Part shown: piece after piece, positions 9,154-22,132 of the stretch | Layout of the letters: each line of letters starts with the position of its first letter | Numbering within the stretch: the stretch's first letter is position 1 | Assembly: GCA_005223125.1 (NCBI GenBank) | Contig: NJBH01000032.1 | Location: 1 to 45,540 of the forward strand | Reading direction: 5' to 3' | From: Promethearchaeota archaeon Loki_b32 | GTDB lineage: Archaea > Asgardarchaeota > Lokiarchaeia > Sigyniarchaeales > SOKP01 | DNA: 45,540 nt | The notes under the pieces: generated by a model | What the model was told of the DNA's origin: nothing | Seen by the model: only the letters and a program-made list of their open reading frames with translations | Databases searched by the model: none | Translations under genes and position numbers: made by a program

Positions 9154-11916
9154 ATGACTGAATCAGATGATAAAGTAGCAGATGATAAAATCAAAGGAAC
9201 AGCTTCTATAGAAAAGCTTAGAAAGGTAAATGCTGCTGCTAATTATTGCTATGAATGTAATCGTTGTGTAAATGTGTGTCCAGTAGCATTTTTAGATATT
9301 TTTAATCCCCGAGAGTTAATTACAGATTTAACGTTTCTGACACCAGAAGAAGCTTTAAAGAATAATGATATATGGAAATGCTTAACATGTGGGCTATGTT
9401 CAATTTACTGTCCAATGACTAAAGATAAAACCGGAGTAAATTTCACTGAAATTATTAAGGATCTCCGCTCTCTTACTTCAGAATACAAACCATTACAAGA
9501 TACATTAATAAATTGTAATCACGAAAGAGTATATTCAAGTTTACCAAAATTAATGGCAGAAGATAAAGTTGAATTTACTAATAAAATAGGATTTTTAGAG
9601 GGAACTGGGTTAAAAACAACTAATAAAGGAGAAATTGGCTACTTTATGGGGTGTATTCCATTCTTAACAGGTGCTGCTCCTTGTGTCGTTGGATGCCCTG
9701 CTGGGGTTGACGTTCAAGGTTATGTATCACTTATTGCAGAAGGTAAATTTCAAGAGTCTATCGATCTAATAAGAGAAACAAATCCATTACCATACTTATG
9801 TGGACGGATTTGTACTGCTCAATGTGCATTAAATTGTAATCGTGAACATTTTGATGATCCAGTTGCTATCCGTGAACTTAAGCGATTTGTTTCCGACTGG
9901 GAAACTGAGCATCCTAATCAAAGTAAAATAAAACCTGTTCCACAGAATAAAGAAAAAGTTGCTATTATTGGGGCAGGGCCTGGGGGGTTATCAGCAGCAT
10001 ACTTTCTTGCGAGAATGGGATATAAACCAACCATATTCGAGAAAGGAGATAAAACCGGTGGAGTCGTAAGATACGGTGTTCCACAATATAGACTTTCTGA
10101 TGAAGCTCTTGACCATGATGTAGATTTTATAAAAAGTATGGGAGTAGAAATTGTTTTAAATAAAGAATTTGGCCCAAATTTCACAATAGAAGATATTTGG
10201 AAGCAAGGTTATAGAACAATCTTTATTGCTGTCGGCTTGTATGTACCAAAAACGCTTAGACTTGAAGGTGAAGATTTACCTAACGTGCATGTAGCAATAG
10301 ACTTTCTTTTAGAGCGAAAATATAAATGTGCGGAAAATCCAGAAGAGTTTAAAGGCAAAACTTTTGGAATTATCGGAGGTGGAGCAGTAGCCGTTGATGC
10401 GGGTGAAACAGCTCTTCGGCTCGGAGCAACCAAGGCTGATCTTGTCGATATTTTGACAGAAGAAGCTTTAAAGAATGTACTTAAGGACTTACATGAAGCT
10501 GAGAGAGAAGTAATGGAATACCATTTTGAGACATCAACAACGAAAATCACTCAAGAACCAGATGGAAAATTAGCATTAAATTGTTATAAAATTGAATGGG
10601 GGGATCCCGATCCTGAAACTGGAAGAAGACCTTTAAATAAAATAGAAGGATCAGATTATAAAATTGTGGTGGATCATATTGTTATAGCGATCGGTCAGGG
10701 ACTTGATCCAGAACCAATTAATGCTGCTACAGATAATCAAATAAAAATTGAAAGAGGTAAAATTGTAGTAGATGATTTAACTTATGAAACAGGTATTCCA
10801 GGGGTTTTTGCGGGTGGTGACATAATTTATAATTCGTTAATGTGTGCTGTCGATGCTATTGGAGATGGGAGAGAAGCCGCATTTACAATTGATCGCTATC
10901 TCAGAGGTCTTGATCTAAAAGAAGGGAGAAGAAGAAAAAACGACTTAAAGCGCTCAACAATCCCGAAAAAATACATTCAAATAAACTCATGCCAAGAAAT
11001 GAATTTCATGCCTGGCAATGAAAGACTTGTATGCTTCGATGAGATGGAATTAGGCTATACTGAGGAACAAGCAAAAAAAGAAGCTAACAGATGTCTAAAT
11101 TGTAATTGTTGCTGTAATTCTGATCAGATTCCAGAAGATTTCGAAAACGCGCTTAATGATTCTGGAATTATGATATGCGATTATGGGAGCCAAGATATTT
11201 GGCCTTCAATAAATGCACCTAATTATTATGAGATCCCCAAAAGTGTAATTGGAATTTTAAATCAAAATGACATAACTCCAGTTGTTTTACCAGAAGAAAA
11301 ATGCTGCGGACATGATAGTCTTTGGCGAGGAGATGTTGACACATTTAAGAAATTAGCGGAATATAATGTAAAATTATTTAAAGATGCAGGAGTCAAAACT
11401 CTAATCTTTAGCTGCGCTGAAGGATATTATACCTGGAAAACTGAATATAAAAAGCTATTTGAAGGCAGTGATGAATTCGATTTTGATATTTATCACATAA
11501 CTGAATATATACTAAAAGAAAACCTATTTGATAGCATAACTTTTTCAAACTTTGATAAAATTAAGGTAACTTATCACGATCCTTGCAGACTTGGGAGAAT
11601 GAGTGATGTTTTTGATGCTCCAAGGGAAGTATTAAAACAAATACCATATTTAGAATTAATTGAAATGGAAGACACTATGCAAGATGCAGAATGTTGTGGA
11701 GTTTCAGCATATGTATCATGCAATCAGGATTCAAAAAAATTACAAGAAAAGAAAATAAATCAGGCTATTGAAACTGGTGCAGAATACTTAATTACAGCAT
11801 GTCCTAAGTGTATAGCTCATCTGAATTGCTATTTAAATGAAAATAAAGAAATAAAAGATAAAATAAAAATAGTTGATCTAGTAAGTTTTCTAGGAAAACT
11901 ACTTTTTTTAGTGTAA
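9154..11916 (+). CDS. HdrD-like heterodisulfide reductase with an inserted GltD/NfnB flavin module
   Basis: 920 residues. Residues 25-110 form an HdrC-type ferredoxin (C32, C35, C38, C42; C76, C79, C82, C86). At 161-171 the HdrD family block IGYFMGCIPFL begins the first CCG domain, but it is interrupted by a full GltD/NfnB-type module (about 172-660). That module has ferredoxin-like Cys at 177, 181, 216, 220, 224 and 228, an FAD site GAGPGG (273-278), an NAD(P)H site IGGGAVAV (407-414), AGGD (553-556) and CLNC (647-650). The CCG domain resumes at about 665 with EEKCCGH (714-720). A second CCG domain has DPC811, C847-C848 and C883/C886. In the first CCG domain the usual CxxC reads CAEG (754-757), losing one ligand. 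It probably couples NAD(P)H to thiol/disulfide or ferredoxin chemistry. Confidence 0.85.
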   Translation: MTESDDKVADDKIKGTASIEKLRKVNAAANYCYECNRCVNVCPVAFLDIFNPRELITDLTFLTPEEALKNNDIWKCLTCGLCSIYCPMTKDKTGVNFTEIIKDLRSLTSEYKPLQDTLINCNHERVYSSLPKLMAEDKVEFTNKIGFLEGTGLKTTNKGEIGYFMGCIPFLTGAAPCVVGCPAGVDVQGYVSLIAEGKFQESIDLIRETNPLPYLCGRICTAQCALNCNREHFDDPVAIRELKRFVSDWETEHPNQSKIKPVPQNKEKVAIIGAGPGGLSAAYFLARMGYKPTIFEKGDKTGGVVRYGVPQYRLSDEALDHDVDFIKSMGVEIVLNKEFGPNFTIEDIWKQGYRTIFIAVGLYVPKTLRLEGEDLPNVHVAIDFLLERKYKCAENPEEFKGKTFGIIGGGAVAVDAGETALRLGATKADLVDILTEEALKNVLKDLHEAEREVMEYHFETSTTKITQEPDGKLALNCYKIEWGDPDPETGRRPLNKIEGSDYKIVVDHIVIAIGQGLDPEPINAATDNQIKIERGKIVVDDLTYETGIPGVFAGGDIIYNSLMCAVDAIGDGREAAFTIDRYLRGLDLKEGRRRKNDLKRSTIPKKYIQINSCQEMNFMPGNERLVCFDEMELGYTEEQAKKEANRCLNCNCCCNSDQIPEDFENALNDSGIMICDYGSQDIWPSINAPNYYEIPKSVIGILNQNDITPVVLPEEKCCGHDSLWRGDVDTFKKLAEYNVKLFKDAGVKTLIFSCAEGYYTWKTEYKKLFEGSDEFDFDIYHITEYILKENLFDSITFSNFDKIKVTYHDPCRLGRMSDVFDAPREVLKQIPYLELIEMEDTMQDAECCGVSAYVSCNQDSKKLQEKKINQAIETGAEYLITACPKCIAHLNCYLNENKEIKDKIKIVDLVSFLGKLLFLV

Positions 11917-13869: not shown

Positions 13870-14080
13870 CTGTGTTTTAGAATTTTATTTCTTAAAATTA
13901 ATTATTTACAGATTTGTAAGTTTGTCAACATCCATCTACTATTCATTTTCATTAGTATGAGTTCACTTATTTTAAAGAGAGACATTTTTGGAATTAAGAA
14001 GAAACCTAATAAATATTGATACTTTATTTTTTCATAATTATTTTCTATCAAAAAATAACTCTTAAATAATAGTGAAAAAC

Positions 14081-16006
14081 ATGAGTAAAACTAAGGAAAT
14101 ACCTGTTCCTGATAAAATTTTGGGTTTTACACAAGTTAGACTTGATGTAGATCTAACAGATGGAAAGATTAGTAAGTCTAAACTATCTAATGAATTCTGT
14201 CGCGATTGGATTGGTGGTTATGGTTTTGGTGCCAAAGTATTATGGGATGAATGCCCAGCTGGAGTTGATCCCTTAAGCCCAGAGAACGTGTTTGTATATG
14301 CACATGGTCCATTTCCAGGAACTATTCTTCCTACAAGTTCTAAATATGGTGTATTTGCTAAATCTCCATTAACTGGCCAGTTTGGAATGGCCATTTCTTC
14401 TGGATCTGTTGGTGCTCAAGCTCGACGTGCTGGCATCAATATGATAGTATTCAAAGGTAAAGCCCCAGAACCTGTTTATATGGTTGTTGATGACGACGAT
14501 TATTATTTATTTCCATGTAAAGATTCCGTATGGGGTAAAAGTTGTTGGGAAACAGAAGAAATCTTGAGGGAAGAATTTCAAGATCAACGTCTAGGGATAA
14601 TGACTATAGGCCCAGGCGGAGAACGTATGAGTCGTATGGGATGTATCACAAATGATCGCAACAGGCAAGCAGGAAGGACAGGTATGGGGGCTGTAATGGG
14701 ATCAAAAAACCTTAAAGCCGTATGCTTTAGAGGTACTAAGGGAATTAGTGTAGCCCAACCTGTAGAGTTCTTTAAATTAGCGAAAAAATTAATAAAAGTC
14801 GCTAACGGACCTGCTACAGCTAAATATCGCGATTTAGGTACGCCTGCAGGTATAACAAGCTACAACAAGCTTGGAATGATGCCTATTTTTAACCATCGCG
14901 AAGGAACTTGGGATAAAATTGATGATGGGACATTTACAGGTGATATACTCAATCAAGATTGGGTTATAAAGAAAGTTGCATGTTCACAATGCTCAATAGG
15001 GTGTGATCACATTACTAAGGTACCTAAAGATCATCCAAATTGGCCCAATCTATATTCAAGTATAGACCAAGAACTTTGTTATAGTTTTGGAACCGCGTGC
15101 GGTAATTATGATTGGCCATCCGTATTTAAATGCGTATCATTAACAGATGATCTTGGTATTGATGCTATTAGTGGAGGCGCAACTGCTGCTATGGCTTGCG
15201 AATGTTTCGAGGAAGGTATTATCACCAAAGAGGATTTAGGTTATGAATTACCTTTTGGGTCTACAGTTAATCTTGTGAGATTTACCGAAGAAATGATTCT
15301 TGGTAAAGGTTTCGCAGGTAAGATTTTTGGAGATGGAACAAGAGAAGCTGGAAAACGATTAGAGGAAATGGGTAGAAAAAATGCAAGTTATTATGCTATG
15401 CATGTTAAGGGGTTAGAATTACCTGCTTTTGATGTACATGGAATGAGTTCATTTGCCGTTGGAATGAGTGTTTCTATTCGTGGAGCATGTCATTTACGTA
15501 ATGGAGCATATGGATTAGATGCAAAAGGGAAATTTGACCGCTTCGGTTATGATAAACCAGTTGAACGAGGTAAAGCAATTAAAGATTTAGAAGATATCTA
15601 TGCTATAATCGATTCATATATCGTGTGTAAATTTACTCGAGGAATTTATGAAAATGATGCTGAAATGGCAAAAGTCTTTGAGCTTGTGACAGGAATCCCT
15701 GTGACTGATAAATTTATACAACATAGAGGAGAAGCTATATTGAACCTTTCAAAATGTTTTAACATTCGAGAAGGATGGACACGAGATGATGATAAGCCAC
15801 CTGAAAGGTTCTTCAAACAACCACATACAAGAGGGCCTGCTAAAGGTATTGTTTTGAAAGAAGAAGGGTATCAGAAAGTATTAAGTGGTTATTTTGAAGC
15901 TCGAGGCTGGGATACTAAGACAGGAATTCCTACAGATGAAACGTTAAAGTCTCTTGGATTAGATTTTGTAATTGGCAAATTATCACCTGCAGGAGGTAAG
16001 AAATAA
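14081..16006 (+). CDS. aor: Tungsten-dependent aldehyde ferredoxin oxidoreductase
   Basis: 641 residues, the size of archaeal AOR. The N-terminal AOR domain has GPFPGT, SSKYGVFAKSPLTGQFG and GSVGAQARRAG blocks that bind the tungstopterin. The [4Fe-4S] ligands are C301, C304 and C308 in CSQCSIGC, with the distant fourth at C516; this spacing is close to that of Pyrococcus AOR. The enzyme oxidises aldehydes to acids, or runs in reverse, with ferredoxin as partner; the substrate cannot be read from sequence. A GTG three codons upstream is possible, but ATG 14081 has AGTGA five bases before it. The ferredoxin partner gene starts at the base after its stop, so the two are translationally linked. 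Confidence 0.92.
   Translation: MSKTKEIPVPDKILGFTQVRLDVDLTDGKISKSKLSNEFCRDWIGGYGFGAKVLWDECPAGVDPLSPENVFVYAHGPFPGTILPTSSKYGVFAKSPLTGQFGMAISSGSVGAQARRAGINMIVFKGKAPEPVYMVVDDDDYYLFPCKDSVWGKSCWETEEILREEFQDQRLGIMTIGPGGERMSRMGCITNDRNRQAGRTGMGAVMGSKNLKAVCFRGTKGISVAQPVEFFKLAKKLIKVANGPATAKYRDLGTPAGITSYNKLGMMPIFNHREGTWDKIDDGTFTGDILNQDWVIKKVACSQCSIGCDHITKVPKDHPNWPNLYSSIDQELCYSFGTACGNYDWPSVFKCVSLTDDLGIDAISGGATAAMACECFEEGIITKEDLGYELPFGSTVNLVRFTEEMILGKGFAGKIFGDGTREAGKRLEEMGRKNASYYAMHVKGLELPAFDVHGMSSFAVGMSVSIRGACHLRNGAYGLDAKGKFDRFGYDKPVERGKAIKDLEDIYAIIDSYIVCKFTRGIYENDAEMAKVFELVTGIPVTDKFIQHRGEAILNLSKCFNIREGWTRDDDKPPERFFKQPHTRGPAKGIVLKEEGYQKVLSGYFEARGWDTKTGIPTDETLKSLGLDFVIGKLSPAGGKK
15991..15997 (+). promoter_or_regulatory. 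Ribosome binding site of the AOR-linked ferredoxin gene
   Basis: AGGAGGT lies inside the last codons of the AOR gene, nine bases before ATG 16007. It fixes the start of the downstream gene and couples its translation to that of AOR. Confidence 0.65.
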
Positions 16007-16564
16007 ATGTCAAAAGTTGGAACTAAAAAAAGAGGAGGAGTAGTACACCAGTTTATTATCGTTGACCCAAATCTATGTTCGGGATGCGAGACATGTGAAT
16101 CTGTTTGTTCATTCGTCCATGATGGCGAATTTAACCCAATTAATACGCGAATCCATAGAGTAAGAATTGAACCCATTTTGAATGTTGCACTAGCTTGCCA
16201 AAAATGTGATGACGCACCCTGCGTGCGTGCATGTCCAGAAAAAGCTCTTGAACAGAATAAAGAAACAGGTTCAATTATCGTAGATGATGATAAGTGCAAT
16301 GGATGTGCCTTTTGTATACGTGCATGTGACTTTGGAGTTTTAGGTTTACATATACAATCTCAAAAAGCTCTTATTTGCGATTTATGCGAAACAATGAAAG
16401 AAGACTATATCGATCCAGAAAGAGGGGAACCATATCCTGCGTGTATCGATGTATGCCCAAAAGAAGCTATATCGTTGAAAGATGTTGAACAAATTGGTGA
16501 AGAAAAAAGGATTGATGCTGTAAAAAGGCTATTTGGCGAAATCTTAAAAGAAACTGAAGGTTAA
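16007..16564 (+). CDS. Four-cluster ferredoxin subunit paired with AOR
   Basis: 185 residues with four Cys groups arranged like the electron-transfer subunits of molybdenum/tungsten oxidoreductases (DmsB/HycB type): LCSGCETCESVCS (from about 23), CQKCDDAPCVRACP, CNGCAFCIRACDFG, and CDLCETM with CIDVCP near the end. Such proteins bind up to four [4Fe-4S] clusters. It starts at the base following the AOR stop and has a perfect ribosome binding site, so it is made with AOR and should carry AOR electrons to ferredoxin or the HdrA complex encoded next. After its stop comes a 278-base AT-rich leader before hdrA. Confidence 0.88.
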   Translation: MSKVGTKKRGGVVHQFIIVDPNLCSGCETCESVCSFVHDGEFNPINTRIHRVRIEPILNVALACQKCDDAPCVRACPEKALEQNKETGSIIVDDDKCNGCAFCIRACDFGVLGLHIQSQKALICDLCETMKEDYIDPERGEPYPACIDVCPKEAISLKDVEQIGEEKRIDAVKRLFGEILKETEG

Positions 16565-16678
16565 TTCAATTTTATTATAATTATTTTATTTTAATATTTT
16601 CTTTTTTTGTACTCTGTATAATGAGACCTTTAGATTAATTCATAATTTTCATCTGAGTTTTATTTCATAAATTCATGT

Positions 16679-16695
16679 GAAAATATCGTATTTTC
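16679..16695 (+). terminator. Small hairpin in the AOR-hdrA gap
   Basis: GAAAATA (16679-16685), a TCG loop and TATTTTC (16689-16695) form a 7-bp hairpin. It lies 115 bases after the AOR-ferredoxin stop and could end that transcript, but T-rich DNA here makes this weak. Confidence 0.25.
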
Positions 16696-16756
16696 CTACA
16701 AAAATTTCATAATAATTTAATTTTAATAATATTGACAATTTACAATCACATAATAC

Positions 16757-16781
16757 ATTTCTTAGAAATACTCTAAGAAGT
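16757..16781 (+). promoter_or_regulatory. Inverted repeat upstream of hdrA
   Basis: TTCTTAG (16759-16765) and CTAAGAA (16773-16779) are perfect complements around a 7-base loop, extended by a G-T and an A-T pair to 16757-16781. It lies about 60 bases before the hdrA start in a 278-base leader. It could be an operator or an RNA hairpin controlling the selenoprotein operon. Its loop lacks the AUGA/GA core of the downstream SECIS-like element, so I do not call it a SECIS. Confidence 0.35.
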
Positions 16782-16831
16782 AAGAGCAAAAATGGTTAAT
16801 TTTTAAGAATTAGGAGGTTAGTATTAACAAA

Positions 16832-16836
16832 GGTGA
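16832..16836 (+). promoter_or_regulatory. Ribosome binding site selecting the hdrA TTG start
   Basis: GGTGA sits six bases before TTG 16843, complementary to the 3' end of archaeal 16S rRNA. No in-frame ATG precedes the conserved N-terminus, and the TGA inside this site would otherwise look like another in-frame selenocysteine codon. Confidence 0.6.
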
Positions 16837-16842
16837 ACAAAT

Positions 16843-18819
16843 TTGTCTGAAAAACAGACCAATAAAAATGAAAACGAAGATCAACCAAGAATAGGTGTGT
16901 TCGTGTGCCACTGAGGTATTAATATCGCAGGAATCTTAGATATTCCAAAGATAGTCGAAGAGATAGATAAATTAGACAATGTTTGGGCTTATCCATACAT
17001 CTCTCTATGAACTGAAGGTGGATCCACTGAAATCAAAGAGAAACATGAAGAATTTAAGTTTGATAGAGTTGTTGTAGCAGCTTGTACTCCAAAAACACAT
17101 CAGCCTGTTTTCCATGCTATTTTAACAGAGATGGGCTTACCACCACGTTATTTGGAGTTCGTAAACATTCGCGAGCATTGTTCATTTGTACATCAAGCTC
17201 CGGAGGTGCGTGAAAGAGCAACACTGAAAGCCATAGAATTAATCAAAGCGGGGATTTCTAGATCAAGACTATTAGAGGATGTACCAACAAAAACAGTACC
17301 AGTAAAACCAGCGGCTTTAGTTGTTGGTGGAGGAATCGCAGGATTATCAGCAGCAATCGATTTAGGAGATGCGGGTTATAAAGTATATTTAGTGGAGAAG
17401 AATACGACGATTGGTGGTCGTATGTCCCAACTCGATAGAACTTTCCCAACAGACGATTGTTCGATATGAATATTGGGACCAAAAATGCTTGAAGCCAATC
17501 GCCATCCAAACGTAGAAATATTAACCTACAGTGAAGTCATAGAAATAGATGGGTACATCGGTAACTTTAAAGCTAAATTAAGAAGAAAAGCACGCTTTGT
17601 TGATGAGACAAAATGTATTGGTTGTGGTTCTTGTACAGATATATGTCCTGTTTACACGAGTAATTACTTTGATGAACATTTATCTGCGAGAAAAGCTATA
17701 GATATTGCTTTTGCCCAAGCAGTTCCGGCAGTTTCACAACTTAACCGAGACGTTTGTGTTGAATGTTTTGCGTGTGTTGATGCATGTGAACAAGAAGCCA
17801 TAGATTTCAGCCAACGAGATAAAATTATAGAACTTGATATTGGAACGATAATAGTTGCTACTGGTTGGGACCTCTATAAAGGTGATGATTATGGTTATGG
17901 TATTTATGATAACGTAATCAACCAAATAGAATTAGAGAGGATCCTAGCACCTAATGGACCAACTTATGGTCATTTGAAGCGTCCCTCTGACGGTAAACGC
18001 CCTACTAAAGTATTATTTATTAATTGCGTTGGATCCAGAGATATAAATAAAAATGCTCATTGCAGTGTTATCTGTTGTAATCTTTCTCTAAAAAACTCTA
18101 AATTAATCAAGTCAGAATACCCTGATTCGCAAATTGTTTGTTGTTATATTGATATGCGATGTGCTGGGAAAGATTACGAAGAATATTATAGAAGATCTCG
18201 AGATGCGGGAATTATTTTTGTTAAGGGATTGGTCGGAAAAATAGAACAAGATCCGTTAACGAAAAATCTGAAAGTACAATTTGAACCAGTTGGTACTGAT
18301 AGTATAGTTTCTATGGAATTTCACATGGTGGTTACTTCACCAGCATCATTACCATCTCAAGGAACTAACGAAATTGCCAGAGTTCTGAAAATGGAAAAAA
18401 GCCCTGATGGGTTCTTAAAAGAATATCATGCACGACTCGATCCAATTAGTACAAAAGTCCCGGGAATTTATATCTGTGGTTCTGCCCAAGGTCAAAAAGA
18501 GATTGATAAGACAGTAAGCCAAGCTAGAGGAGCAGCATCAGTAGCAGGCATTCCAATGGGAAAAGGTGAATATACTATGGAATTAATCCGAGCTAAACCC
18601 TCAGATGAACGTTGTGCTAAATGCTATAGATGTATAGAGGCCTGTCCATATACAGCAATTTCAGTAAATCCTGAAGGAAATCTTGTTGTTGACCTCATAA
18701 ATTGTCGAGGTTGTGGAGCTTGTGCATCATTATGTCCTTCAAAAGCAATTGAATTAACATACTTTAGAGATGACCAGTATATGGCATTAATAGATGAATT
18801 ATTACCAATTGAGGAATAA
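16843..18819 (+). CDS. hdrA: Selenocysteine-containing HdrA, flavin electron-bifurcating subunit
   Basis: 658 residues when three in-frame TGA codons are read as selenocysteine (Sec24 at 16912, Sec56 at 17008, Sec209 at 17467). All three replace Cys that are conserved in HdrA: CHUG for CHCG, LUTEGG in the second N-terminal cluster site, and CSIUILGPKM for CSxCILTPKM in the FAD region. The FAD motif VVGGGIAGLS follows residue 160. An inserted ferredoxin has CIGCGSCTDICP and CVECFACVDAC, and the C-terminus has CAKCYRCIEACP and CRGCGACASLCP. HdrA splits electron pairs between ferredoxin and a thiol/disulfide or hydride partner. TTG start with GGTGA six bases before it; mvhD starts 16 bases after the stop, so the pair share a transcript and probably one SECIS. 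Confidence 0.9.
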
Positions 18820-18835
18820 AGAGGTCGAGAAAAAA

Positions 18836-19294
18836 ATGGCAGAAGATAATGATTTAAAAATTATTGTATATGCTTGTTGGAAATGAGGGTATGGTTCAGC
18901 GGATATGGCAGGTACAATTCGTGCACAATACCCGGATTCCATTAGAAATGTCTTAGTACCTTGCGCGGGACGTGTAGGATGTGATCTAATAATGCGGGCA
19001 TTTGGTAGAGGTGCTGATGGCGTAGTAATTAATGCTTGATATCCTAAAGAGTGTGATTATGAAACTGGAAATTACTATGCATATCGTCAAGTCGAATACG
19101 TTAAGGAAATATTAAAAGTTATTGGCATGAGTCCAGAAAGAATCAAAATGATATATTGCACAGCAGCTGAGGGTCAAAAATTTCAAAAGGAAGCTATAGA
19201 AATCGATAAAACTATACGTAAATTGGGACCTAGTCCCTTACGTACAAAAGGCGGCACACCTAAAGAAAAAGCTAAAGCGAAAGCAAAGGCTTAA
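18836..19294 (+). CDS. mvhD: Selenocysteine-containing MvhD/VhuD-like [2Fe-2S] subunit
   Basis: 152 residues with two in-frame TGA codons: Sec17 (18884) in CWKUGYGSAD, where other MvhD have CNWCSYGGAD, and Sec68 (19037) in NAUYPKECDY, where others have GCHPGDCHY. The remaining ligands CAGR and EC are conserved, so the two Sec residues take Cys positions of the [2Fe-2S] site. MvhD carries electrons from a hydrogenase or formate dehydrogenase to HdrA. GAGGT ten bases before the ATG supports the start. The C-terminus ends in a Lys/Ala-rich tail (KAKAKAKA). Directly downstream is the SECIS-like hairpin, then the FrhB/FdhB-like gene, which suggests the electron source here is not a hydrogenase encoded next door. 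Confidence 0.9.
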
Positions 19295-19300
19295 AAAATA

Positions 19301-19373
19301 ATGTGTTTACTGATGAAACTGAGTTAAAAAAATGAGAACTCAGTTGAGGAAATGGGAGCACCATATAACACAT
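19301..19373 (+). promoter_or_regulatory. SECIS element with a eukaryote-like AUGA/GA core
   Basis: Located six bases after the mvhD stop. Outer stem: ATGTGTT (19301-19307) pairs perfectly with AACACAT (19367-19373). Inner stem: AACTGAGTT (19317-19325) pairs with AACTCAGTT (19337-19345), nine pairs, capped by an A-rich 11-base loop (19326-19336). Just below the inner stem, ATGA (19313-19316) faces GAG (19346-19348), which gives A-G and G-A tandem non-Watson-Crick pairs as in the quartet of eukaryotic SECIS. The 3' side of the internal loop is long (about 18 bases against 5). Published work on Lokiarchaeota describes SECIS with eukaryotic features; this one fits. It must serve mvhD and probably hdrA. 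Confidence 0.75.
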
Positions 19374-19483
19374 AAAAAAAATTTTCAGATGGTTTAATCA
19401 AAATTATTGTAAAATATTTCAAAAAATTTGGGAAATTAAGAAAAAAATAAATAAGTTAAATATAATAATTGAGTTGGAATTAC

Positions 19484-20623
19484 ATGGATGCAATAGATGA
19501 GTATCTGATAAAGATAGAAGATTTTTCAAAGATTTTAGCAGCATTGTTAAAAGAGAAAGTAGTAGATAAAATCATTGGCGCTCAATTGAGGGTTGATAAG
19601 AAATCAGGTAATATTGATAGATTTACTGTTCAACCTAAATTAGCAGAAAAAGAAGAGGATGTAAAAGATTTTCCTTTAACTCCTCTAATTGCATTTGGAT
19701 ATGCAAGAACAGATTCAGCTTCTAAATTTTTACATAAATCTGTCGCAGGTGCGATGAATGAAAAAGTTGGGCTAATTGTACGTCCTTGCGATACAAGAGC
19801 ATTAATAGAACTCGCAAAAATCAAGCAAGTAAATCTCGATAACCTCTTTATAATCGGTATTGAAGATAGAGGTATGATGCCTAAAGCAGGGCGAGAGATG
19901 AGATCGAATAAAGATGTTGATCCAACGAAAATCGTAAAAGAAAAAGTAGGAGATAAGGGTCTTATCGTTAAGATGGAAGACGGAAGCACAAAAGAGCTTA
20001 ATCTTACTGTTGCTGAGAATTGTTTGAGATGTTATCGTAAAATTCCGGTAATCGCTGATTTAACAGTTAGTGATCTTGGTATTCCAATTGATTCAGATGA
20101 GATTATCTTAAAAGTATATTCAGATAAAGGAAGTGAAATTTTAGATAAATCAGGAATCAAGAAAAAAACACTACCGGATAAGGAGAAAAAGGCTCATTCA
20201 ACCAAATTTAATGAAATCATTGAAAAAGCTAAAGAAAAACGAGCAAAGGATTTAGAAGAATGGGAAAAACTTTCACAAGAAGATAAAATTGCGGAATTAC
20301 TTAAGTGTACAGCATGCGGGATCTGCATTCGTGGATGTCCTGTTTGCTATTGTGTAGATTGCATTCTAACAAAGAAAAAGAAAGATAAAAACATTGATAA
20401 TGTAACTTATCATTTAACACGAATAGCTCATGACGCAGATCGTTGTATTGAGTGCGGGAATTGCTCAAATAATTGTCCACAGAATTTGCCACTATCATTA
20501 TATTTTCAATCGTTAAATGAAGCCTTTAAAGAGAAATTCGATTATGAACCGGGTATATCTCTTGAAGACATTCCATTTCGATCTGGAAAAGCAATTTCCC
20601 AGATGGAATTAGAAAAAACATAA
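19484..20623 (+). CDS. FrhB/FdhB-like F420 hydrogenase/formate dehydrogenase beta subunit
   Basis: 379 residues from ATG 19484 (a TTG five codons upstream is possible). The central part has VRPCDTRALIEL (about 102-113) and AENCLRCYRKIP, blocks of the FrhB/FdhB C-terminal domain. Ferredoxin motifs follow: CTACGICIRGCP with extra Cys in VCYCVDC, then CIECGNCSNNCP near residue 325. Family members bind F420 or NAD(P) and FAD and pass electrons to Fe-S partners. The gene follows the selenoprotein pair by 189 bases that include the SECIS, consistent with an HdrA-MvhD-FdhB electron-bifurcating set. No FdhA or hydrogenase large subunit lies in the window. Confidence 0.8.
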   Translation: MDAIDEYLIKIEDFSKILAALLKEKVVDKIIGAQLRVDKKSGNIDRFTVQPKLAEKEEDVKDFPLTPLIAFGYARTDSASKFLHKSVAGAMNEKVGLIVRPCDTRALIELAKIKQVNLDNLFIIGIEDRGMMPKAGREMRSNKDVDPTKIVKEKVGDKGLIVKMEDGSTKELNLTVAENCLRCYRKIPVIADLTVSDLGIPIDSDEIILKVYSDKGSEILDKSGIKKKTLPDKEKKAHSTKFNEIIEKAKEKRAKDLEEWEKLSQEDKIAELLKCTACGICIRGCPVCYCVDCILTKKKKDKNIDNVTYHLTRIAHDADRCIECGNCSNNCPQNLPLSLYFQSLNEAFKEKFDYEPGISLEDIPFRSGKAISQMELEKT

Positions 20624-20758
20624 ACCTAATTTTTTTAAATTCTTTATTTTATTATTTTATTTATTTAGTTATTTTAATTAAAAGTCTCAAGTAAAATTAA
20701 ATAGGAATAATTCAAAAGTTAAATTAAAGAGAAATTCTACAATATTTTGAATAAGTCC

Positions 20759-22132
20759 ATGTCGACTAATATTATCGAAAGTAAACCAATTAATAACAAT
20801 ATTTTTTTTGTTATCCCAAGCTGGGGAAATCTTCTCGGATATCCAACTTTAGGTAAATATGCTCATCATAATATATCAAAAATATCTCAAGATCCTGTTA
20901 TCTTCTTGGGAGGAACTGAATGTGCGATTTCAACAGATAAAGGAACGTTGTATTATTTGTTTGGTTTAGGATATTATTATCTTAAGTTTGAACTACAATC
21001 TGGAAGATATATTACCGACAACCGTCAATTAACAGGTTTAATTCTATCTGATTTTGTATATGACCATTTAGCGACATCTAAAAATATAACACTAGAAAAT
21101 GAAAAAGACGTGATTGTTAGTGAAAATTTGTTTAAATTACCAATTGACCTTTCATATAAAACAGAAAGTAAAAAAACATTCATTCAAGGAACTCTTATGC
21201 GGAATTTATTCATACCTTATAAAGATGTTTTTTTGGAATTTATGGAGTCAATTCAGAATCTACAATCTCTCCTTATTGAAAGAAATAAGCATATGTTACT
21301 AAGTACTCACTGGGATTTTTACAATCAGATCTTAATATCTAAGGAAAAAGAATTAAAAACTAATTACTTACAAGCTACAGCGGGTTTAGATAATATTACT
21401 ACCGGAGTAAATATTCTTTTAAATCAACACTTTAATTCTTCTCAATTACAGGAAATAAACAACACTATTAAACATTTTAAAGAGGTTTTTTCTTCAATAG
21501 AATACGATCCAATGTACTTATTTTCTATAATAGAGAATAGTGCCAAATTTTTAAGAGGAGGAACACCGATCCCTTCATTGGAAAAAGAAATCTCAAAAAA
21601 AATGCCTAAAGAATCAATATTGATTTCTGCTGAGTCTGCTATGGAATCTTTTAGAGAGTGGCCTGATATTTTTAGAAGACAATCTAAGGAACAATTGGAA
21701 AAATCTTTTATACCAGAGGAAACCGTTAAATATCAACCTAAAGAATCTATAGGTCTACAAAAGCCAGCAGTAGGGAAATTTAAAAAGAAAGATATAGATT
21801 TTGAACTTAGAACTGTGAAACGTCCATTTGTAGGATTTAAACCTCTCCCAACTATACCTATAGATAATCTATTAGATATTCTCGCTACTTTAAGAAAAGT
21901 AGTTGAAGAAGATTTCGATATTAAGTCGATAGGTAAGACCCTTGAAATTGCTCGAGATAATATTAAAAGAGAAGTTTTACACGCTAATTTTCTTTGGGAT
22001 ATGAGTAAATATTCCAATGATTACCAACGAATAGAACCCAATATTGGATTAGGTTTTAATGAAAAAGAAGATTTATTAAGAGAAATAGATTATTGGATAA
22101 AAATATCTCAGAAACATTATGCCAAATTTTAA
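20759..22132 (+). CDS. Unrecognised 457-residue protein, overlaps the next gene
   Basis: I do not recognise a family. From ATG 20759 (a TTG four codons upstream is an alternative) the product begins with an alpha/beta segment rich in aromatics (FFVIPSWGNLLGYP, about 16-29) and a second such block, YYLFGLGYYYLKFEL. The middle (about 140-290) is mostly helical, and residues 290-380 are charged and probably flexible. The end is again helical. No membrane segment, signal peptide or metal motif is seen. It overlaps the next gene by 14 bases, so the two proteins are made together and may form a complex. Confidence 0.6.
   Translation: MSTNIIESKPINNNIFFVIPSWGNLLGYPTLGKYAHHNISKISQDPVIFLGGTECAISTDKGTLYYLFGLGYYYLKFELQSGRYITDNRQLTGLILSDFVYDHLATSKNITLENEKDVIVSENLFKLPIDLSYKTESKKTFIQGTLMRNLFIPYKDVFLEFMESIQNLQSLLIERNKHMLLSTHWDFYNQILISKEKELKTNYLQATAGLDNITTGVNILLNQHFNSSQLQEINNTIKHFKEVFSSIEYDPMYLFSIIENSAKFLRGGTPIPSLEKEISKKMPKESILISAESAMESFREWPDIFRRQSKEQLEKSFIPEETVKYQPKESIGLQKPAVGKFKKKDIDFELRTVKRPFVGFKPLPTIPIDNLLDILATLRKVVEEDFDIKSIGKTLEIARDNIKREVLHANFLWDMSKYSNDYQRIEPNIGLGFNEKEDLLREIDYWIKISQKHYAKF

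Follow-up and report, generated by a model that had tools for sequence, protein, structure and literature searches.

An mvhD gene of Lokiarchaeia with two very probable selenocysteine codons, beside an hdrA gene with three further in-frame UGA codons

Under the standard code, two neighbouring genes of Promethearchaeota archaeon Loki_b32 (Lokiarchaeia), hdrA and mvhD, are truncated by in-frame UGA codons. Are these codons read as selenocysteine (Sec), how much of such an arrangement is already known, and what could the Sec residues do in an electron-transfer unit? The locus lies on contig NJBH01000032.1, of which a stretch of 45,540 nucleotides was analysed as a whole (the window); its features are collected in Table 1.

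Table 1. Features of the hdrA–mvhD locus, in positions of the window.
Feature	Position	Strand	Remarks
Aldehyde ferredoxin oxidoreductase (AOR) family protein, upstream neighbour	14072..16006	+	PF01314, PF02730
Ferredoxin-like Fe-S protein, upstream neighbour	16007..16564	+	Recognisable in some relatives only
hdrA	16843..18819	+	Three Sec codons; TTG start assumed
hdrA TGA, CHU motif, N-terminal cluster Cys column (position 29)	16912..16914	+	U in 44/44 family relatives with the region
hdrA TGA, SLU motif, N-terminal cluster Cys column (position 61)	17008..17010	+	U in 8/44, Cys in 36/44
hdrA TGA, DCSIU motif, known HdrA CxxU	17467..17469	+	U in 46/46; X in 9sfi_A
mvhD-family gene (PF02662)	18836..19294	+	152 residues, two Sec codons
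Sec17 of MvhD = TGA, CxxU motif	18884..18886	+	U in 34/34 aligned relatives; X in PDB 9sfi_K
Sec68 of MvhD = TGA, U-YPKEC	19037..19039	+	U in 34/34 aligned relatives; X in 9sfi_K
SECIS, eukaryote-like type I	19300..19374	+	AUGA core 19313, GA 19346, A-rich apical loop
SECIS lower stem	19301-19307 with 19367-19373	+	Part of the element 3' of mvhD
FrhB/FdhB-like Fe-S protein, conserved third gene of the cluster	19469..20623	+	PF04432

A first-pass annotation had recognised an MvhD with two in-frame TGA codons in the window, and its coordinates proved exact. When TGA is read as U, the frame runs from MAEDNDLKIIVYACWKU through NAUYPKECDY to a TAA; the TGAs are exactly codons 17 and 68, and there is no further internal stop. 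The product matches the PF02662 (MvhD/FlpD) profile over its full length, with 137 bits against a gathering threshold of 22.3 (E 4e-40). Two of the 12 PF02662 matches in the same genome have two TGAs, at least 90 two-TGA mvhD matches are found among the matches listed across 61 family genomes (this genome included), and such genes are also present in other Asgard families and classes. Across 34 aligned MvhD sequences, columns 14, 43, 73 and 108 are always Cys, and both TGA columns are U throughout; an order-level relative (L144) has Cys at the equivalent of Sec68. Nucleotide changes relative to four close relatives are mostly synonymous and at third positions, between the TGAs as well as after the second. 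In the comparison with L074, the changes at codon positions 1/2/3 number 5/0/23 between the TGAs and 4/2/25 after the second, and synonymous and nonsynonymous codons stand at 22:3 and 24:5, respectively. Given this third-position bias past each TGA, translation evidently proceeds past both codons, and the pattern of substitutions indicates that purifying selection persists beyond each of them. Sequencing or assembly errors, or a pseudogene, would account for the in-frame stops themselves and for nothing more; with both TGAs recurring in separate assemblies and selection continuing past them, this explanation has a negligible probability and was rejected.

The SECIS element 3' of mvhD offers a second line of evidence. 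Folding z-scores of -2.6 and -3.0 were obtained for the stretches tested around it. The lower stem, upper stem, AUGA...GA core and A-rich apical loop are all retained in 25 relatives, in which 97% of the cells pair and nine pairs show two-sided changes; such pairing was equalled by none of 500 shuffles, uncorrected for relatedness, nor by slid versions. A search of positions 14000-21000 against Rfam returned no match. On the 3' side of the element (19354-19367) there is also a short hairpin, AUGG...CCAU, which is invariant in 25/25 sequences, so that covariation cannot test its pairing. The study on Asgard hdrA-frhD pairs (PMC11227280) describes a type I eSECIS for these genes and proposes that both share a single element. 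The pairs portrayed there resemble the locus in the short intergenic gap, the shared eSECIS-like element, the AUGA core of Loki members and the A-rich loop. In the methanogen M. maripaludis, a lokiarchaeal SECIS is reportedly inactive (PMC11881835). In the window, hdrA and mvhD are separated by 16 nt, which leaves no room for a SECIS; the downstream element is therefore most likely common to both genes and would serve the three UGA codons of hdrA together with the two of mvhD, the farthest lying 2.4 kb upstream of it. In two relatives (L083 and L085), mvhD seems to terminate on a UGA just 5' of the SECIS. A single mRNA would then have to use one UGA as a stop while recoding two more; alternatively, the terminal UGA may itself be read through, adding a short tail.

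The genome also contains genes for making Sec. SepSecS is present, as are two selD genes with one TGA in each, and a tRNA-Sec candidate with the loop CUUCAAA adjoins SepSecS (contig C57, near 28551). The candidate, detected by means of a relative's tRNA-Sec, scores poorly as it stands; compared with the relative's gene it is interrupted twice, near the D-arm and again in the T-arm, by insertions of roughly 30 bases. For the tRNA-Sec of Lokiarchaeota, an intron in the T-arm has been reported, and no other insertion (PMC9499178). The search of the genome with RF01852 gave weak matches, none of which was accepted as tRNA-Sec. The top-scoring one corresponds to a tRNA that has the anticodon UCC and contains an insertion; three others were identified as tRNA-Gly, tRNA-Arg and tRNA-Leu. 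Taken with the SECIS, mvhD shows the traits of an Asgard eSECIS selenoprotein gene, namely UGA at Cys positions of homologues, a 3' UTR AUGA_GA SECIS with an apical run of A and supported stems, and SepSecS, selD and a tRNA-Sec candidate in the genome.

A different reading of the same codons is that UGA is a sense codon, for Cys or Trp, throughout the genome and that no Sec is involved. UGA is indeed rare as a stop, ending 0/32 genes of the window, 2/38 genes in loci of the same genome and 6/77 in relatives, and both mvhD sites are Cys columns. Nevertheless, UGA does end ordinary genes, so it has not simply been reassigned; in-frame TGAs in the window are limited to two known selenoprotein families, and a covarying SECIS exists along with SepSecS, selD and the tRNA-Sec candidate. 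Reassignment is thus very improbable and was rejected on the strength of the true UGA stops, the SECIS and the Sec genes, and both TGAs of mvhD are very probably genuine Sec codons. At the start of the contig (34-573), the sole long frame, of 179 aa, needs two TGA readthroughs and looks beta-barrel-like by eye; it is possibly spurious, or foreign sequence at the contig end.

Which residues do these codons replace? The first-pass annotation had placed the TGAs at Cys sites of MvhD, and this holds: both correspond to conserved Cys columns in solved homologues and in Cys-only paralogues of the same genome. The delta subunit of PDB 9sfi (chain 9sfi_K) has X at exactly the positions of U17 and U68; we infer that X in the 9sfi chains stands for Sec. 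A predicted model of the protein, of middling confidence (mean pLDDT 75.6, with residues 20-29 below 50), matched 5odh_D, 8rvu_F and 7bkb_F in Foldseek (E 1e-15 to 3e-12), and target-normalised TM scores of 0.88-0.91 were found against the MvhD of Hdr-Mvh, Fdh-Hdr and Elp-Hdr complexes.

A two-Sec MvhD is by itself already known. The earlier annotation was right about the family, the Sec codons and the Cys columns; its view that methanogen VhuD has Sec at the first site only, and that a second Sec is less expected, did not survive comparison with the literature. In M. maripaludis, "vhuD contains two TGA codons" (PMC9622424), and a 2026 review lists MvhD/VhuD with "CxxU" and a number of Sec of 2, and mentions some archaeal FrhD/VhuD with multiple Sec (PMC13188914). 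More generally, archaeal selenoprotein genes have been described with one or two Sec and a single SECIS (PMC9499178). A close counterpart is the VhuD of Methanococcales, the two-Sec delta subunit of the F420-non-reducing hydrogenase (PMC9622424, 9sfi_K), which belongs to the same family, has X or Sec at both identical positions and has an adjacent or partner hdrA with CxxU. The window's gene differs in having no adjoining hydrogenase genes, a SECIS of eukaryote-like type and an HdrA with further Sec sites. The name VhuD was rejected for it, as its protein reaches 139.2 bits against the curated NCBIfam cut-off of 215 for NF045873 and no hydrogenase large or small subunit genes are among the neighbours scanned.

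Do both Sec residues bind the cluster of MvhD? A [2Fe-2S] cluster has four ligands. Five positions (14, 17, 43, 68 and 73, as CxxC, C, C, C) hold nothing but C or U throughout the alignment, whether the protein is a Sec or a Cys form; conservation alone therefore fails to single out the four ligands. Should the ligands all come from these five, one Sec or both must bind the cluster. It is plausible that both do. Alternatively, both UGAs would encode Sec and a single one would ligate the cluster, the other being a redox-active or structural residue beside it. The count of five invariant columns for four ligands speaks for this possibility; in the predicted model, however, the five positions all map to one sheet edge, at or immediately following three strands, so that each could reach the cluster, and neither Sec site is marked out as the odd one. 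It is accordingly a minority reading, although one to be taken seriously, and ligation by both Sec residues is retained as the plausible assignment. The literature search turned up neither a paper on 9sfi nor one that names the cluster ligands of MvhD.

The less expected part of the locus is found in HdrA, and its N-terminal Sec sites are worth a specialist's look. The protein matches 9sfi_A with E 2e-202 over 640 residues, and all six four-Cys sets of HdrA are present; it stays below the cut-off of NF040770 (732 vs 1100 bits), a model that includes a fused MvhD part. In the HdrA of 9sfi, the known CxxU site is occupied by X. Four conserved Cys columns (27, 29, 61 and 86 in aligned-frame numbering) form a set to which the first two hdrA TGAs belong. 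With the HdrA domain list used to assign the Cys sets (PMC12054007), the remaining conserved Cys are all accounted for by two ferredoxin pairs, the reductase-domain set and CxxU; by elimination, 27, 29, 61 and 86 look like the ligands of the N-terminal [4Fe-4S] cluster. This set is Cys in the HdrA of the solved structures compared, 9sfi included. Among the 44 family HdrA sequences with the region, U occurs at 29 in 44, at 61 in 8 and at 86 in 16, and no sequence has U at both 61 and 86 (0/44), the second Sec being at either position or absent. At position 61, close relatives have TGA or TGT, which amounts to a natural Sec/Cys swap. More distant Asgard HdrA show other combinations, e.g., L132 with U at 61 and 86 and C at 29; none of the family and distant Asgard HdrA examined has U at more than two of the four positions. 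HdrA is listed with one Sec in the 2026 review (PMC13188914), and the main text of PMC11227280 gives neither the number of Sec per protein nor Sec at the N-terminal cluster of HdrA. No description of these sites was found in the literature; they may be recorded in the supplements of PMC11227280 or in Mariotti 2016.

Two further hdrA regions were seen in the same genome, both on contig C36. The second hdrA (L010, 1477-3586) has two in-frame TGAs, in CRU and DCAIU, and unlike the hdrA of the window it has its own element, a SECIS match immediately 3' of it (29 bits, E 5e-5). The third region (L011, C36:76574-78903) contains several TGAs and one TAA, adjoins another two-TGA mvhD and may have suffered a frameshift or be split in two.

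On balance, although with considerable reserve, we favour the view that HdrA-MvhD of Lokiarchaeia is a multi-Sec electron-transfer unit, with five Sec in the window. Beyond the known sites of MvhD and the CxxU of HdrA, one or two of the four N-terminal [4Fe-4S] ligands of HdrA would be Sec, the first at a position constant across the family and the other at a site that changes between lineages, and one SECIS would serve five UGAs in two genes over 2.4 kb.

The gene neighbourhood gives some indication of what such a unit does. The order hdrA-mvhD-frhB is retained in 7/7 relatives examined, and the genes upstream are not uniformly conserved among these seven. No hydrogenase subunit genes were found among the scanned neighbours (HdrA, FrhB-like, ferredoxin, AOR family), and no HdrBC genes adjoin the cluster; the partners of MvhD and HdrA are for this reason putative. 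In Elp-Hdr, electrons take a path from an FdhB homologue through ElpC, an MvhD homologue, to the HdrA flavin (PMC12350162). Elp-Hdr and Fdh-Hdr, in which the MvhD homologue sits between the FdhB-like protein and HdrA, have the same components as the cluster and match its MvhD in fold; they differ in being Cys forms, and ElpA/FdhA and HdrBC were not found beside the window's genes. From this precedent, a unit can be postulated in which electrons move between HdrA and a hydride carrier (F420 or a similar one). The 920-residue protein encoded at 9154-11916 has a 4Fe-4S part at its N-terminus, a GltD-like NAD(P)-binding part and, at the C-terminus, a cysteine-rich CCG domain like that of HdrB/D; it could be an electron partner of HdrA.

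The AOR-family gene upstream recalls another system. In class II benzoyl-CoA reductase, the Bam complex, an AOR-type BamB occurs with HdrA-like and MvhD-like subunits. Its BamF has been treated in PMC13119186. The likeness consists in an AOR-family gene near an HdrA-MvhD pair with selenium; the window's upstream genes, in contrast, are conserved in some relatives only, and a Bam-like aryl-CoA reductase was considered for the AOR-family gene and set aside on that ground.

With good confidence, the locus can be read as encoding the Sec form of MvhD in Lokiarchaeia. The protein would be the small subunit that carries a [2Fe-2S] cluster, binds to HdrA and transfers electrons, and its gene would share the SECIS with hdrA. 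By analogy with Elp-Hdr, electron exchange with the hydride carrier would probably fall to the FrhB-like protein, and MvhD would relay the electrons to or from the HdrA flavin of an electron-bifurcating or confurcating unit. Sec would take the place of Cys at the MvhD cluster, the N-terminal cluster of HdrA and the HdrA CxxC. This reading is built on the frame, its conservation, the selection acting on it, the SECIS covariation and the Sec genes; insertion of Sec, sharing of the SECIS, ligation of the clusters and the electron partners are its predicted parts.

If the multi-Sec reading is true, mixed selenolate/thiolate clusters would be a recurrent way of tuning the HdrA-MvhD chain. The many natural Sec/Cys swaps at defined Fe-S positions of HdrA and MvhD offer an evolutionary series in which the effect of a selenolate ligand on a biological cluster could be followed. 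The locus matters in another respect as well, as a lone SECIS seems to direct the recoding of all five UGA codons of the two genes.
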